NCBI GenBank assembly: GCA_027622655.1
Contig: JAQBYI010000035.1
Location: 1-33,544, forward strand
Direction of reading: 5' to 3'
Source: Gemmatimonadota bacterium
Lineage (GTDB): Bacteria; Gemmatimonadota; Gemmatimonadetes; Gemmatimonadales; Gemmatimonadaceae
Length of the DNA stretch: 33,544 nt
This document shows, piece after piece, positions 25,866 to 32,272 of the stretch; the first letter of the stretch is position 1; every line of letters starts with the position of its first letter. The notes beneath the pieces are model-generated. The model was not told the DNA's origin. It worked only from the letters and a program-made list of their open reading frames with translations, and ran no database searches. A program made the position numbers and the translations under genes.

Positions 25866-27047
25866 TCAGAACTTCGGCGGAACGAACGTCGCGCTGGGCA
25901 TGCCAAACGCGTGCCCCTGCGCGAGATCGGCGCCGAGCGCGGAGAGCGCATCGCGTTCGCCGGCAGTCTCAACTCCCTCCGCGATCACCGGTACACCGAG
26001 CTCACGGCAGAGTGCGTAGATGCCGCGGGTCATCCGGGCGCTCGCGTCGTTTGTATCGAGGCCCTGAATGAGCCGACCATCGAGCTTCACGAAATCGGGG
26101 GCGAGTTTTGCATACGAATTCATTCCCGAACCGCCGGTGCCAAGGTCGTCCACGGCGATGCGGTATCCCGCGCCACGCAGCGCCGGTATGCCGTTGGCGA
26201 AGGAGTCGATCTGCGCCGGCGACGTGCGGTCGCTGATCTCCAGCACTATGCTCCGCGCGAGCGGTTCCAGCGGCGCCTCAGCGCCCGTGAGCAACCCTTC
26301 CTGCGCGTCCCACGGATGCACGTTGACGAACAGCAGCGCGCCGTCGGGGAGTTCCGAGCACGACGCCGCGATCCGTTGGTAGATGGTCCGCGCCATGAGC
26401 GGGCGCCACGCAACGCGGTCGGATGCGGCAAGCAGCGAGGCATACGATGCGAAAAGCGTTTCGTCACACCGCATCAGCGCTTCGTACCCGAGAAGCGACT
26501 TGGACTTGAGCGACACGACAGGCTGGAAGGCAATCCGAATCGTTTCGTATGCGCGTTTGAGCACCGCTTCGAGGTCGGCGCGTTCGTCCAGCGATACTGA
26601 CTTGCGCCCCCCACCGGCCAGCGCGTCGCGTTTCGCGCGCGCGAGCTCGCCGAGCGCTACCGCGCGGCCGACGGCAGTGACGAGCGCGTCCGGTTCAACT
26701 GGCTTCAGGAGGTACTGTTGTGCGCCGTATTCGACGGCGTCGATCGCCGAATCCAGCGTGGGGCCGGCGGTCATCAGGATCACCGGCACATCGAGGTCGT
26801 GGCGCCGCAGTTCTCTGAGGAACTCCACGCCCGTCATTTCCGGCATGATGATGTCGGAGAGAATCGCGTGGTATTTCTTCTGTGGGATCAGTGCCAGAGC
26901 GTCCTTTGCGCTCGACATCGTGTCTACGGTAAACCCGCGCCTCTGCAGCACGATGCCCAGTACCTTGAGAACGGCCGGTTCGTCGTCAATGACGAGCACC
27001 CGACGGGCGCTGGCGGACACTGATAATGGAGTCGCGGCGGCTGACAT
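25866..27047 (-). CDS. response regulator with receiver and EAL domains
   Basis: Two-component output protein that should hydrolyse c-di-GMP under phosphorylation control, 393 residues. The receiver (about 15-135) has VLVIDDEPAVLK (acidic pair), the phosphoacceptor Asp 65 in ILSDIIMPEM, Thr in LMTAGPT and Lys in LLKPVEPD. The EAL domain (about 165-390) keeps YEALMR (Glu 188), FVNVHP, LEISDR, DDLGTGGSG, FVKLD, IAEGVET and AQGHAFG, so it is probably active. No histidine kinase is encoded nearby. ATG 27047 lies 6 bp after the metH stop; TTG 27053 is the alternative. Being wedged directly behind metH and in front of an acyl-CoA dehydrogenase is unusual for a signalling protein. Confidence 0.92.
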   Translation of the reverse strand: MSAAATPLSVSASARRVLVIDDEPAVLKVLGIVLQRRGFTVDTMSSAKDALALIPQKKYHAILSDIIMPEMTGVEFLRELRRHDLDVPVILMTAGPTLDSAIDAVEYGAQQYLLKPVEPDALVTAVGRAVALGELARAKRDALAGGGRKSVSLDERADLEAVLKRAYETIRIAFQPVVSLKSKSLLGYEALMRCDETLFASYASLLAASDRVAWRPLMARTIYQRIAASCSELPDGALLFVNVHPWDAQEGLLTGAEAPLEPLARSIVLEISDRTSPAQIDSFANGIPALRGAGYRIAVDDLGTGGSGMNSYAKLAPDFVKLDGRLIQGLDTNDASARMTRGIYALCRELGVPVIAEGVETAGERDALSALGADLAQGHAFGMPSATFVPPKF

Positions 27048-27053
27048 ACCCAA

Positions 27054-30000
27054 TTATCGGCCCGAAGCGCCCTCTCGCGCCAGCACCCGGTCGTAAGCGA
27101 GGTTCGGGGACAGCCAGCGTTCGGCGACTTCGACGGTAATCCCCTTACGCTGCGCGTACGCTTCAACCTGGTCGCGTTCGATCTTGCCGACGCCGAAATA
27201 CCGGGACTCAGGACGCCAGAAGTACGTCCCGGAGACTGCCGACGCCGGCAGCATCGCGAAGCTTTCCGTCAGGGATATGCCAGCCCGCGCCGTAGCGTCG
27301 AGGAGGCGAAAGACCGTCGCCTTTTCAGTGTGGTCGGGACACGCCGGATAGCCTGGGGCAGGTCGAATTCCCTGATACTGCTCGCGGATGATCGCGGCGT
27401 TGTCGAGGTGCTCATCCGGCGCGTACGCCCACAGTTCGCGTCGGACACGCTCGTGCAGGGTTTCCGCGAAAGCCTCGGCCAACCGGTCCGCGAGAGCCTT
27501 GAGGAGAATCGCGGAATAGTCGTCGTGCGCCGCTTCGAAAGCCTCGGCGCGTTCGGGTAGCCCGATTCCCGTTGTCACGGCGAACAGGCCCATGTAGTCG
27601 CGCACGCCCGACGACGTTGGCGCCACGAAATCGGCGAGCGCGAAGTTGGGCCGGGCATCGGTCTTCACCATCTGCTGACGTAGCGTGTGCATGGTGGCGA
27701 GCGGTTCGGCGCCGGCGGCGCGCGCAGCGTCGTCGGCCCAGAGGCGAATGTCTTCTGCGTCATCGCTGTTGGCCGGAAAGAACCCGACCACGGCGCGCGC
27801 GTGCAGCCACCGTTCGGAAACGATTCGGCCAAGCATTTCCTGAGCGTCGCGAAACAGGTTGCGCGCCGCCTCGCCTACCGTCGCGTCTTCGAGAATAGCC
27901 GGATAGCGGCCGGCGAGCTCCCACGTCTGGAAGAATGGAGTCCAGTCGATGTGTGGAACGAGTTCACCGAGCGCGAAGTCATCGAACGTCCGAACACCAA
28001 GGAACGTTGGCTTCGGCGGGATCATGGCGTTCCAGTCAATGCGCAGTCGGTTGGCGCGGGCCTGCTCGAGAGTCTGTTTCGGCGCGTCCTGACGGCGTTC
28101 GGCGCGGCGAACGCGGACGTCGGCGTACTCGGCGCGTACGTCGGACACGAGCGAATCACGCTGCGCCGGATTGAGCAGCGCCGACGCAACACCGACCGCG
28201 CGCGATGCGTCGAGCACGTGGATGACCGGTCCGCTGTACCCCTGCTCGATCTTCACGGCCGTGTGCACTTTGCTCGTCGTCGCGCCGCCGATCAGCAGCG
28301 GAATGGTCATTTTCTCGCGTTCCATTTCGGTCGCGATGAACGCCATTTCCTCGAGCGACGGTGTGATGAGGCCGGAAAGGCCGATGATGTCGGCGTTCTC
28401 TGAGCGCGCAGTTTCGAGAATCTTCGCGCACGGCACCATCACGCCGAGATTGACGACTTCATAGTTGTTGCACTGCAGCACGACGGCCACAATGTTCTTG
28501 CCAATGTCGTGCACGTCGCCCTTTACCGTCGCGAGCACGACTTTTCCCTTGGCGCCCCGTCCGCGACCCGACGTCCCTTTGCTGTCCTGCGCAACTCCGC
28601 TGGCCGCCTCCTCGGCCGCCAGCGCGTCGCGTTCGGCTTCGATGTACGGAACGAGGTGCGCCACCGCACGCTTCATGACCCGGGCGCTTTTCACGACCTG
28701 CGGCAGGAACATCTTGCCGCTCCCGAACAGATCGCCGACAATGTCCATCCCGTCCATCAACGGGCCTTCGATCACTTCGATCGGATGCTCGGCGAGCCGT
28801 CGGGCTTCTTCGGTGTCGTCCACGACGAAATCCGCGATTCCGTGAACCAGCGCGTGACTGAGCCGCTCGTGCACAGGTGCCTTGCGCCACTCGAGGTCCG
28901 CGGTCCTGGCCTTGGCTTCACCCTTCACGCTCGCTGCAACTTCCAGGAGTCGTTCGGTAGCGTCGCCGCGGCGATTGAGCACCACGTCTTCGACGCGTTC
29001 GAGAAGTGCGGGCGGAATGTCCGAATAAAGCGGGAGGCCGCCTGCATTGACGATCCCCATGTCCATGCCCGCGGCAACGGCGTGGTACAGGAACGCCGCG
29101 TGAATCGCCTCGCGAACCGGATTGTTTCCGCGGAATGAGAACGACACGTTGCTCACGCCGCCCGAGACGCGAGCGTGCGGCAGTTTCGCCTTGATCTGCC
29201 GTGTGGCTTCAATGAAGGCCACCGCGTAATCGTTGTGTTCGTCCATCCCGGTGGCGATTGCGAAGATGTTCGGATCGAAAATGATGTCTTCGGGCGCGAA
29301 ACCGACCGTCTCGGTGAGAAGTCGGTAGGCGCGCTCGCAGATCGAGACTTTGCGCTCGACGGTATCGGCCTGGCCCTGTTCGTCGAACGCCATCACGATC
29401 ACCGCGGCACCGTAGCGACGGACAAGTTCGGCGTGCCGGAGAAACTCGGCTTCGCCTTCCTTGAGGGAAATCGAGTTGACCACACTCTTTCCCTGGAGGC
29501 ACTTGAGACCGGCCTCGATAACGCTCCACTTGGAGGAATCCACCATCACCGGCACCTTGGCGATGGCGGGTTCGCCCGCCGCGAGATTCGTGAAACGGCG
29601 CATCGCGTCTTCGGCGTCCAGCATTGCCTCGTCGAAGTTCACGTCGATGATCACCGCCCCTGCTTCCACCTGCTGCCGCGCGACGATGAGCGCCTCGTCG
29701 TATTTCTCCTCGAGGATCAGCGTGCGGAACTTCGCCGAGCCGGCCACGTTCGTTCGCTCGCCGACGTTCACGAAGTTCGAGTCGGGCCCGATCGTCAGAG
29801 GTTCGAGTCCGGACAGGCGGAGGCGGCGTTCGATGGTGGGTCGCTTGCGCGGTGGCTGGTCGCGCACCGCATCAGCGATGGCGCGAATGTGCGCTGGCGT
29901 GGTTCCGCAACATCCTCCGACCACGTTCAAATAACCCGCCGTCGCGAACTCGCGCAGCACACTTGCCGTGTAATCGGGTGTCTCGTCGTAGCCGCCCATT

Positions 30001-30863
30001 TCGTTCGGGAGGCCGGCATTCGGGTGGATCGTCACCCACGACGGCGAGACGCGCGACAGTTCCTGGATGTAGGCGCGCAGGTCCTTGGCACCGAGCGCGC
30101 AGTTGAGTCCCATCGAGAACGGCTGCAGGTGGCTGACGGAGTTGTAAAATGCCTCGGTCGTCTGGCCGGAGAGCGTCCGGCCACTCGCGTCGGTGATCGT
30201 GCCAGAGATCATGACGGGAAGCCGTTCGCCGAGTTCATCGAAGAGCGATTCGATCGCGAAAATCGCAGCTTTCGCGTTCAGGGTGTCGAAGATGGTTTCC
30301 ACCATCAGCAGGTCGCAGCCACCGGCGACGAGTGCGCGCGCTGCATCACGGTAGGCGGCGACGAGCTCGTCAAACGTGATGTTGCGGAAGCCGGCGTCCT
30401 CAACCTTCGGCGAGATGCTCGCCGAGCGGTTTGTGGGCCCGAGCACTCCTGCTACCCAGCGTGGCCGGCCGTCGTTGGCCTCGAACCGATCGCAAGCAGT
30501 ACGGGCAAGGCGCGCGGCGCACTCGTTCAGCTCTACGACGACACTCTCCAGCCCGTAATCGGCCTGAGCAACGCTGGTGGAGTTGAACGTATTCGTTTCA
30601 ATGATGTCGGCCCCGGCATCCAGGTAAGCCGTGTGGATGGCCGCGATCGCGCTGGGGCGGGTCAGCGCGAGGAGATCATTGTTGCCGCGGAGTTCCGACG
30701 GCCAGTCGCGGTAGCGGTCGCCGCGGTAGTCCGCCTCGGTGAGTCGCAGGGCCTGAATCTCGGTGCCCATGGCACCGTCGAGAACAAAAATGCGCTCGGC
30801 GAGCGTAGGCTCGAGGAGCGCCAGGCGCGCGGCACGGGTGAAGCCAGCGGGTGTGCGGCTCAC
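27054..30863 (-). CDS. metH: cobalamin-dependent methionine synthase
   Basis: Transfers the methyl group of 5-methyltetrahydrofolate to homocysteine through methylcobalamin. 1269 residues, close to the 1227 of E. coli MetH, with all four modules. The homocysteine domain has zinc Cys residues in MGLNCALG (about 255) and [12 protein letters not shown] (about 317). The folate domain starts at [17 protein letters not shown]. The cobalamin cap precedes the B12 domain with DVHDIGKN (His about 784) and NLGVMVPC. The activation domain has [19 protein letters not shown] and [19 protein letters not shown]. The start is GTG 30863, 3 bp after the metF stop, inside a heptamer repeat. Its reactivation by SAM and SAM-II-type control upstream would form a feedback loop. 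Confidence 0.98.
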
Positions 30864-30934
30864 GGTTTACGGCTGACGGTTGTCGGTCGTGCGCGGTGCC
30901 GGCGGCTGTGAACCGGCAACCGTGAGCTGTGAAC
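30862..30934. repeat. degenerate heptamer repeat across the metF/metH junction
   Basis: On the plus strand, ACGGTTT, ACGGCTG, ACGGTTG and TCGGTCG follow one another at 30862-30889, a period-7 array. Further on, at about 30908-30934, lie related pieces containing TGTGAACCGG, CAACCGTGAG and CTGTGAAC. The array supplies the metF stop, the metH GTG start and the last roughly 20 codons of metF, which show no MetF family character. It looks like a short mobile or dispersed palindromic-type repeat that inserted at the gene boundary. Confidence 0.7.
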
Positions 30935-31799
30935 TCTCGGTAGACGTTCCGCCCGGCCTCAGTCCAAGGATGTGGCAGAGCGCGTAGGTCAGGTCGGCGC
31001 GGTTGAGCGTGTAGAAGTGGAACTCCGTGACGCCCGCATCGGCGAGTTTCTGGCACTGATCGGCGGCGACGGTAACGGCGACGAGTTTTCGGGTCTCAAC
31101 ATCGTTCTCGAGTCCGTCGAAAAGCGGCGCCATTGACCGGGGGACCGTCGCGCCGGCCATCTGCGCGAATTTCATCATCGACTGGAAATTCGTGACCGGC
31201 ATGATGCCCGGAATGATCGGTACGGTGATGCCGGCCTTTCGAGCCGCGTCGACGAAGCGCAGGTACGCCCAGTTGTCGAAAAAGAACTGCGTTATGGCGC
31301 GCGACGCGCCCGCGTCGATCTTGCGTTTCAGGTTGTCGAGTTCGGCATCGAGCGAGCGCGAGTCCGGGTGACCTTCGGGGAACGCGGCCACGCTGACATC
31401 GAAATCGTGTCGGGCCCGAAGACCTGCGACCAGTTCTGATGCCCAGGGGTAGCCGTCCGGCGTGGGCTCGTAGTGCGCCGTTCCAGCCGGCGGATCGCCG
31501 CGCAGGGCCACGAGGTGCCGCACGCCGCTTTCCCAGTAGGCGTCCGCCACGGCATCGAGTTCGGACTGCGTTGCGCCAACGCACGTGAGGTGGGCCGCCG
31601 GGGTGATTTCCGTTTCGGCCAGAATGCGTTTCACCGTGCGGTGCGTCCGCTCACGCGTGCTCCCACCGGCTCCGTAGGTAACCGAAACGAACTTCGGCGC
31701 GAGCGGCGCCAGACGCTGGATAGCGCGCCAGAGTGCCTCCTCCGACTCGACGGATTTCGGAGGGAAGAACTCAAACGATACAGAGAACGGAAGCGGCAA
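30867..31799 (-). CDS. metF: 5,10-methylenetetrahydrofolate reductase
   Basis: FAD enzyme that makes 5-methyltetrahydrofolate for MetH, the next gene. 310 residues, TIM-barrel. Family blocks are SFEFFPPKSVESEEALWRA (with the active-site Glu), VSVTYGAGGSTRERT, HLTCVGATQSEL, LVALRGDPP, VAAFPEGHPDSRSLDAEL, ITQFFFDNWAYLRF and PIIPGIMPVTNF, then GVTEFHFYTLNRADL. The final 20 or so residues come from a heptamer DNA repeat. The only usable start is TTG 31799, without a clear Shine-Dalgarno; the codons upstream contain no ATG or GTG. It is preceded on the same strand by a promoter, a SAM-II-like riboswitch and a terminator. Confidence 0.97.
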   Translation of the reverse strand: MPLPFSVSFEFFPPKSVESEEALWRAIQRLAPLAPKFVSVTYGAGGSTRERTHRTVKRILAETEITPAAHLTCVGATQSELDAVADAYWESGVRHLVALRGDPPAGTAHYEPTPDGYPWASELVAGLRARHDFDVSVAAFPEGHPDSRSLDAELDNLKRKIDAGASRAITQFFFDNWAYLRFVDAARKAGITVPIIPGIMPVTNFQSMMKFAQMAGATVPRSMAPLFDGLENDVETRKLVAVTVAADQCQKLADAGVTEFHFYTLNRADLTYALCHILGLRPGGTSTESSQLTVAGSQPPAPRTTDNRQP

Positions 31800-31861
31800 G
31801 CGGATTCGAGGTAGAAGGGGAGATGCGCGCGCGTAGGGCCGACCGAACCAGACTCAAATCC

Positions 31862-31903
31862 AAAAAAAACAAAAAGCCCGCTGCGACGAAGGCGCACCGG
31901 GCT
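31862..31903 (-). terminator. intrinsic terminator in the metF leader
   Basis: On the minus strand, AGCCCG pairs with CGGGCT (31898-31903 with 31875-31880). Inside, TGCG pairs with CGCA after a G/G mismatch, closing on a CCTTCGT loop. A T-run follows directly (TTTTTGTTTTTTTT, 31862-31875). It is about 60 bp before metF and immediately after the riboswitch-like RNA, the position expected for transcription attenuation. Confidence 0.88.
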
Positions 31904-31904
31904 G

Positions 31905-31956
31905 GCGCTTTAGCAGGATATTTAACGTGGCCGCAATTTGCCTCCAAATCGCCACG
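31905..31956 (-). ncRNA. SAM-II-type riboswitch controlling metF-metH
   Basis: Read on the minus strand, P1 is CGTGGC (31951-31956) pairing GCCACG (31926-31931). The loop begins GATTTGG and ends TTGCGG just before the 3' strand of P1. Directly after P1 comes TTAAA, six variable bases, then GCTAAAGC (31907-31914). These blocks and their spacing match the SAM-II family (as in metA and metX leaders of Alphaproteobacteria), where they form an H-type pseudoknot around S-adenosylmethionine. The one weak point is P2: between the loop and TATCCT only AGG/CCT pairs well by eye. Position between a promoter and a terminator in front of metF-metH supports the call. Binding of SAM should lower expression. 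Confidence 0.8.
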
Positions 31957-31975
31957 GGTATCAGTTGTGTTCATC

Positions 31976-32004
31976 AGTCTATCCGGATAAACAGATGGTG
32001 TCAA
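31976..32004 (-). promoter_or_regulatory. sigma70-type promoter of the metF-metH operon
   Basis: A perfect -35 TTGACA (31999-32004) and a -10 TAGACT (31976-31981, four of six consensus bases) are separated by exactly 17 nt. Transcription should begin near 31969, about 13 nt before P1 of the riboswitch. The spacer contains the palindrome TATCCGGATA (31980-31989), which might bind a regulator. Confidence 0.75.
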
Positions 32005-32272
32005 GTCTGGCCGTGGCCCGGGCCCCGAGGGTCTGGCCGGAACGCCGTCTTCAGGCGTCGCCGATGACCGCCCCCCCCCAAGTCGCCTCTATCGGTGACG
32101 CCAGAGTGACGGCGGCAAGAAGATTACAGTCGGCGTGAATTGGTGATGGGTTGGGCCTGGGGTCACTGCAAGTTCGCAGCTGCCCCGGAGTGGGACCGCA
32201 TGGCCGCCGAGGTGTGAAGTGAGACTCGCAGAACTGGACGAAACCATCTCTCACACTTTGGAGGTTTTACCA
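32005..32272. other. non-coding upstream region of the lipoprotein gene
   Basis: With the metF leader this is the only gene-free stretch over 300 bp. It contains the palindrome GGCCCGGGCC at 32015-32024 and a run of nine C at 32071-32079. GGAGG at 32260-32264 is the ribosome site for the lipoprotein gene, 8 nt before its ATG. No clear plus-strand -35/-10 pair, tRNA or further coding sequence was seen; a 24-codon reading that includes the C-run is not convincing. Confidence 0.6.

Follow-up and report, generated by a model that had tools for sequence, protein, structure and literature searches.

How expression of metF and metH is controlled in a Gemmatimonadota bacterium, and what part a SAM-II-like RNA ahead of these genes plays in it, is the question raised by this locus, which lies on the minus strand of a 33,544-nt stretch of DNA (the window), contig 50 of a 3.1 Mb genome. 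The nearest named relatives of its MetF are proteins of Gemmatimonadota (84, 78, 71 and 80% identity), which places the host in that phylum, in agreement with a preliminary description of this DNA that had suspected a phylum other than that of the Alphaproteobacteria. The same description had placed metF and then metH downstream of a promoter TTGACA-17 nt-TAGACT. Both genes pass curated models (TIGR00676 for metF; TIGR02082 for metH, which is also above the cut-off for NF007024), and the promoter is present on the minus strand (32004–31999 and 31981–31976). It matches the sigma-70 consensus at 10 of 12 positions and is the sole promoter-like site in 31750–32250, where shuffled sequences give an expectation of 0.1. 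No in-frame ATG or GTG was found near the beginning of metF; the first listed start is TTG 31799, with no clear Shine-Dalgarno sequence ahead of it. A gene for a response regulator with an EAL-type domain (25866–27053, same strand) begins directly after the metH stop codon and may be cotranscribed with metH. The features of the locus are collected in Table 1.

Table 1 Features of the metF-metH locus, in order of transcription (coordinates are those of the window)
Feature	Position	Strand	Basis
−35 hexamer TTGACA	31999–32004	−	6/6 match, 17-nt spacer
24-bp palindromic operator ATCTGTTTATCCGGATAGACTGAT, two overlapping ATC-N10-GAT sites; predicted ArsR-methyltransferase (SahR/SamR-like) site	31973–31996	−	genus conservation
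−10 hexamer TAGACT, inside operator	31976–31981	−	4/6 match
Expected transcription start, A31970 or A31968	31968–31970	−	inferred from −10 distance
SAM-II (SAM_alpha) aptamer	31890–31965	−	RF00521, 45.2 bits, E 3e-7, full model 1–79
P1: CGTGGC 31956–31951 with GCCACG 31931–31926	31926–31956	−	sequence and Rfam structure line
P2 pseudoknot	31904–31942	−	P2b GGC 31942–31940/GCC 31906–31904; P2a UUGC 31936–31933/GC(U)AA 31914–31910; G31932/C31916
Candidate antiterminator helix 1: GGAGGC 31945–31940/GCCUUC 31893–31888, extended by GCGA/UCGC	31888–31945	−	minimum-energy folds
Candidate antiterminator helix 2: GCGCC 31908–31904/GGUGC 31898–31894	31894–31908	−	shorter-prefix folds of window leader and about half of metF-type relatives
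Intrinsic terminator hairpin	31875–31903	−	−18.4 kcal/mol
U tract TTTTGTTTTTTTT (T4GT8)	31862–31874	−	sequence
metF, methylenetetrahydrofolate reductase	30867–31799	−	TIGR00676, 343.5 bits (cut-off 293.7)
metH, cobalamin-dependent methionine synthase	27054–30863	−	TIGR02082, 1720 bits (cut-off 1011)

The preliminary description had recognized a SAM-II-like RNA by its conserved blocks and had proposed a search with the Rfam SAM-II model and an alignment of metF leaders for covariation. All blocks are in place, with GATTTGG at 31950–31944, TTAAA at 31925–31921 and GCTAAAGC at 31914–31907, and the RF00521 match is significant (45.2 bits against a gathering cut-off of 36 bits); RF00521 is the sole Rfam family matched in the window. 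In the alignment, the P2 pseudoknot covaries in relatives; the platform pairings of the metF group do not covary significantly. The position G31932-C31916, formed by the base before the P1 3′ strand and the base two before GCUAAA, covaries as GC in 27, CG in 14 and AT in 12 non-redundant leaders (53/66), with six more of G-U type. Canonical P2b covaries in metH-type leaders (11/2000 permutations) and is invariant within the metF group; these permutation tests, like those cited below, remove phylogenetic relatedness incompletely. By homology, the RNA ahead of metF is a genuine SAM-II riboswitch, ordinary as an aptamer, which we infer to bind SAM. Immediately 5′ to P1, close to where the transcript is expected to begin (31968–31960 in the window), the leaders share a conserved ACAAY-YGAT-like segment that is not part of the Rfam consensus.

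The intrinsic terminator with a long T-run noted earlier after the aptamer is likewise present, as a hairpin at 31903–31875 followed by T4GT8, which a simple terminator scan overlooked since it allowed loops of at most 8 nt. This layout supports the earlier reading as transcription attenuation, but not the contrast then drawn with known SAM-II elements, since terminators are already the commonest predicted SAM-II platform in alpha- and beta-Proteobacteria (Barrick and Breaker, 2007; PMC2258182). The alternative pairing suggested at the same time, between CGCCA (31907–31903) and TGGCG (31954–31950), is real as complementarity but covaries in no group, with permutations reaching the real value in 500/500 cases for metF and 245/500 for metH. 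GGCG/CGCC does occur when the full leader, and some of its prefixes, are folded to minimum energy; in the full fold TGGCG/CGCCA coexists with the terminator and so would not by itself turn the genes on, and we consider it highly improbable that this pairing is the SAM-free state.

In a better switch model, each of the two P2b strands would, in the absence of SAM, pair with the terminator. Such partners exist for either strand in the metF group to which the window belongs: GGAGGC can pair with GCCUUC or GCCUC, and GCGCC can pair with GGUGC. Helix 1 appears in the minimum-energy fold of the window transcript before the terminator closes (RNAfold, which cannot model the pseudoknot), and the full-length antiterminator and terminator forms of the leader, at −34.9 vs −35.6 kcal/mol, are 0.7 kcal/mol apart. 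The same helix is in the minimum-energy fold of 13 of 23 metF-type leaders and absent from the other 10. Antiterminator covariation within the metF group is not significant (23/500; 440/2000 after a redundancy cut) because the sequences hardly vary, and the metF antiterminator therefore remains a model. In sister groups the platform pairings do covary: in metH leaders the P2 3′ strand (GCUAAAACGC) can pair with the loop of the terminator (GCGUUUUGGC or a variant of it; 0/500, and 7/2000 after a redundancy cut), and in GCCGC-loop leaders (metX, metY, hom and panB types) the P2b 5′ strand covaries with the terminator arm (0/500 and 0/2000). The class holds natural switch variants in which different aptamer strands would capture the terminator.

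These sister-group covariations also bear on whether SAM-II control is exerted chiefly through translation or RNA stability behind a constitutive terminator, as reported for S. meliloti metA, where the terminator limits expression in both media and translational control operates at a distance (PMC9373788). Translational SAM-II platforms seem to exist in the class, as the metH leaders L007, L008, L010 and L023 are without a terminator and have an ATG 8 nt after GCTAAAA. At the locus studied here, however, more than 100 nt separate the aptamer core from the first listed metF start and the aptamer contains no obvious Shine-Dalgarno sequence, and we regard such a mode of action as unlikely; attenuation through the terminator is the reading we retain.

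SAM-II matches were found in 171 of 295 genomes of the class (139 above the family cut-off) and in 17 of 18 genomes of the genus, with none in 14 control genomes. The first genes after 126–128 distinct leaders belong mostly to the methionine pathway: metH about 52 times and metF about 28 times, the remainder including metY/metZ-like, metX, hom, threonine-synthase-like, ATP-grasp and panB genes (names other than metF, metH and panB were read from cluster-representative sequences rather than scanned singly). A terminator-like hairpin, defined by the loose test of −8 kcal/mol or better plus a T tract, follows 112 of 126 aptamers vs 12 of 42 shuffled controls; by this test the terminator is weak or undetected in some metF leaders other than that of the window (L143, L155, L165, L205 and L212).

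The source genome carries a second, weaker SAM-II copy, whose score of 35 bits falls short of the cut-off (36). A second element just upstream of panB, the gene for ketopantoate hydroxymethyltransferase, occurs in this genome and in four other genera (L002, 1501–1575, minus strand; L288, 8659–9967, contig 103 of the source genome; L290, L291, L292 and L293); in the source genome, a MoeZ-like gene and a threonine-synthase-like gene come next. MetF and PanB both use 5,10-methylene-THF, and panB is not among the SAM-II targets reported in the literature compared. Within the class, SAM-II leaders (L178, L170, L209, L113, L132, L136, L137, L152, L003, L168, L181 and L184) are also found ahead of sulfite/nitrite reductase-, sulfurtransferase-, MoaD/ThiS-like sulfur carrier-, threonine synthase- and ATP-grasp-like genes, and these suggest that SAM-II may control sulfur-transfer routes to homocysteine. 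Outside Gemmatimonadota, the closest relatives of the MetF of the genus are alphaproteobacterial (about 60–65% identity). An old transfer of metF is possible, though the alphaproteobacterial loci are without SAM-II; joint transfer of SAM-II with metF was rejected, as no convincing aptamer was found in alphaproteobacterial metF leaders (L037–L112).

The promoter carries a further element that the preliminary description had overlooked, a palindrome (ATCTGTTTATCCGGATAGACTGAT) covering the spacer and the −10 box; upstream of metF-type aptamers it is visible as a conserved ATCCGTTCATCCGGATANACTGAT. Searching the whole genome with at most one mismatch returned one place besides the metF promoter, overlapping the start of a gene for a 312-aa regulator with HTH_5 (ArsR-type helix-turn-helix) and Methyltransf_11 domains, after which ahcY follows. 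Of the 18 genus genomes, 17 have the exact core ATCNGTNNATCCGGAT at the promoter of the metF SAM-II leader. In 14 of these the core recurs only at the start of the regulator gene, in two it does not recur, and in the remaining one, G240, the second palindrome lies elsewhere, at a place with neither the regulator nor ahcY. There are about two operator places per genome, and the regulon is very small. A reversed-pattern control gave no match across the genus genomes. ATC-N10-GAT is present in 27 of 28 metF-type SAM-II promoters and in none of the other approximately 98 leaders, as well as in nearly all of the regulator promoters retrieved from the family, and ahcY lies within 1.5 kb in 30/30 regulator loci.

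Homologues of the regulator (26–38% identity) adjoin metF in 50 of 80 mostly alphaproteobacterial metF loci, and the alphaproteobacterial homologue loci have ATATAAAGATATCTTTATAT-like palindromes of their own. SahR and SamR share an ATC-10 nt-GAT consensus, the SamR site spans 24 bp, and the core targets are sahR, ahcY, metH, metF and metK (Leyn et al, 2014; PMC4239095). Four of these recur here as predicted targets of the regulator: ahcY, metF, metH and the regulator gene itself. We take it to be SahR-like, equating it with published SahR through gene context and motif; its homology and the make-up of its regulon lead us to expect a response to SAH or SAM. A MetR operator was also considered and rejected, as the palindrome does not fit ATGAA-N5-TTCAT (PMC4239095).

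The palindrome might instead belong to the core promoter or serve an activator, conserved for reasons that have nothing to do with SAM or SAH, leaving a plain SAM-II attenuator. Its overlap with the spacer and −10 box means that part of the conservation could reflect promoter constraint, and SAM-II attenuators without the palindrome serve other genes in the same genomes. Yet the palindrome reaches beyond the −10 box, is missing from other SAM-II promoters and fits the SahR/SamR consensus, and in the genus, apart from the metF promoter, it occurs at the start of the regulator gene and hardly anywhere else. We therefore give this explanation little chance, and prefer to see the palindrome as the operator of the SahR-like protein.

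Taken as a whole, the evidence makes it likely that metF-metH is under two-layer feedback control, by a repressor on DNA and by SAM-II on RNA, so that the level of SAM (and perhaps SAH) is probably checked twice. In the first layer, the ArsR-family regulator, which carries a fused SAM-dependent methyltransferase domain and whose gene sits elsewhere in the genome ahead of ahcY, would bind the palindrome that spans the spacer and −10 box and so repress initiation. In the second, the transcript would start with the SAM-II aptamer. With SAM bound, P2b (GGC/GCC) would form, the terminator at 31903–31875 would fold and transcription would end before metF; without SAM, the free P2b strands would pair with terminator sequence (GGAGGC/GCCUUC and GCGCC/GGUGC), the hairpin would be delayed or lost, and metF-metH would be transcribed. 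A more specific version, in which the SahR-like repressor releases the promoter at high SAH and the SAM-II attenuator opens at low SAM, would make the leader a gauge of the methylation index, with metF-metH fully expressed only at a low SAM/SAH ratio; we put this forward tentatively, as a possibility somewhat less probable than its converse.

Each part of this arrangement has a known counterpart. The element resembles alphaproteobacterial SAM-II, such as that of S. meliloti metZ, for which a terminator switch has been predicted (Scheuer et al, 2022; PMC9373788), in aptamer sequence, pseudoknot, terminator platform and association with methionine genes. It differs in its targets, which are listed elsewhere as metY, metA, metX and hom (Leyn et al, 2014; PMC4239095) and are here, in Gemmatimonadota, metF-metH, and in a platform pairing that varies with the gene group. 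SAM-II, described for Proteobacteria and Bacteroidetes in the literature compared, is hereby extended to a class of Gemmatimonadota in which most genomes carry it; a search of one literature collection, which is not proof of novelty, found no paper linking SAM-II, SAM_alpha or SAM riboswitches with Gemmatimonadota.

SahR is known from alpha-, delta- and some gamma-Proteobacteria and SamR from Xanthomonadales (Leyn et al, 2014; PMC4239095). The system described here shares with them a probably homologous ArsR-type protein (by context and motif), the predicted targets ahcY, metF, metH and self, and the ATC-10 nt-GAT motif, and with SamR also the 24-bp palindrome. It departs from them in its operator core, ATCCGGAT as against the ATATAAAGATATCTTTATAT-like sites beside the alphaproteobacterial homologues, and in the linkage of the regulator gene to ahcY rather than metF. 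A close parallel is the hom-metXC operon of Oceanicaulis alexandrii, for which joint control by SAM_alpha and a SahR has been described (Leyn et al, 2014; PMC4239095). With SahR/SamR, terminator-type SAM-II and O. alexandrii all known, the parts and even their combination have precedents. O. alexandrii, however, is a single noted case in another phylum and on another operon, whereas here the combination is kept over at least two genera, on metF-metH. At this locus a real SAM-II follows a conserved SahR/SamR-like operator, a setting less ordinary than the aptamer itself. It would be a well-conserved case in which one promoter is governed in series by a riboswitch and by a protein regulator that respond to related metabolites; novelty lies in the phylum and the operon, in the conservation of the combination, and in the variants of the platform.
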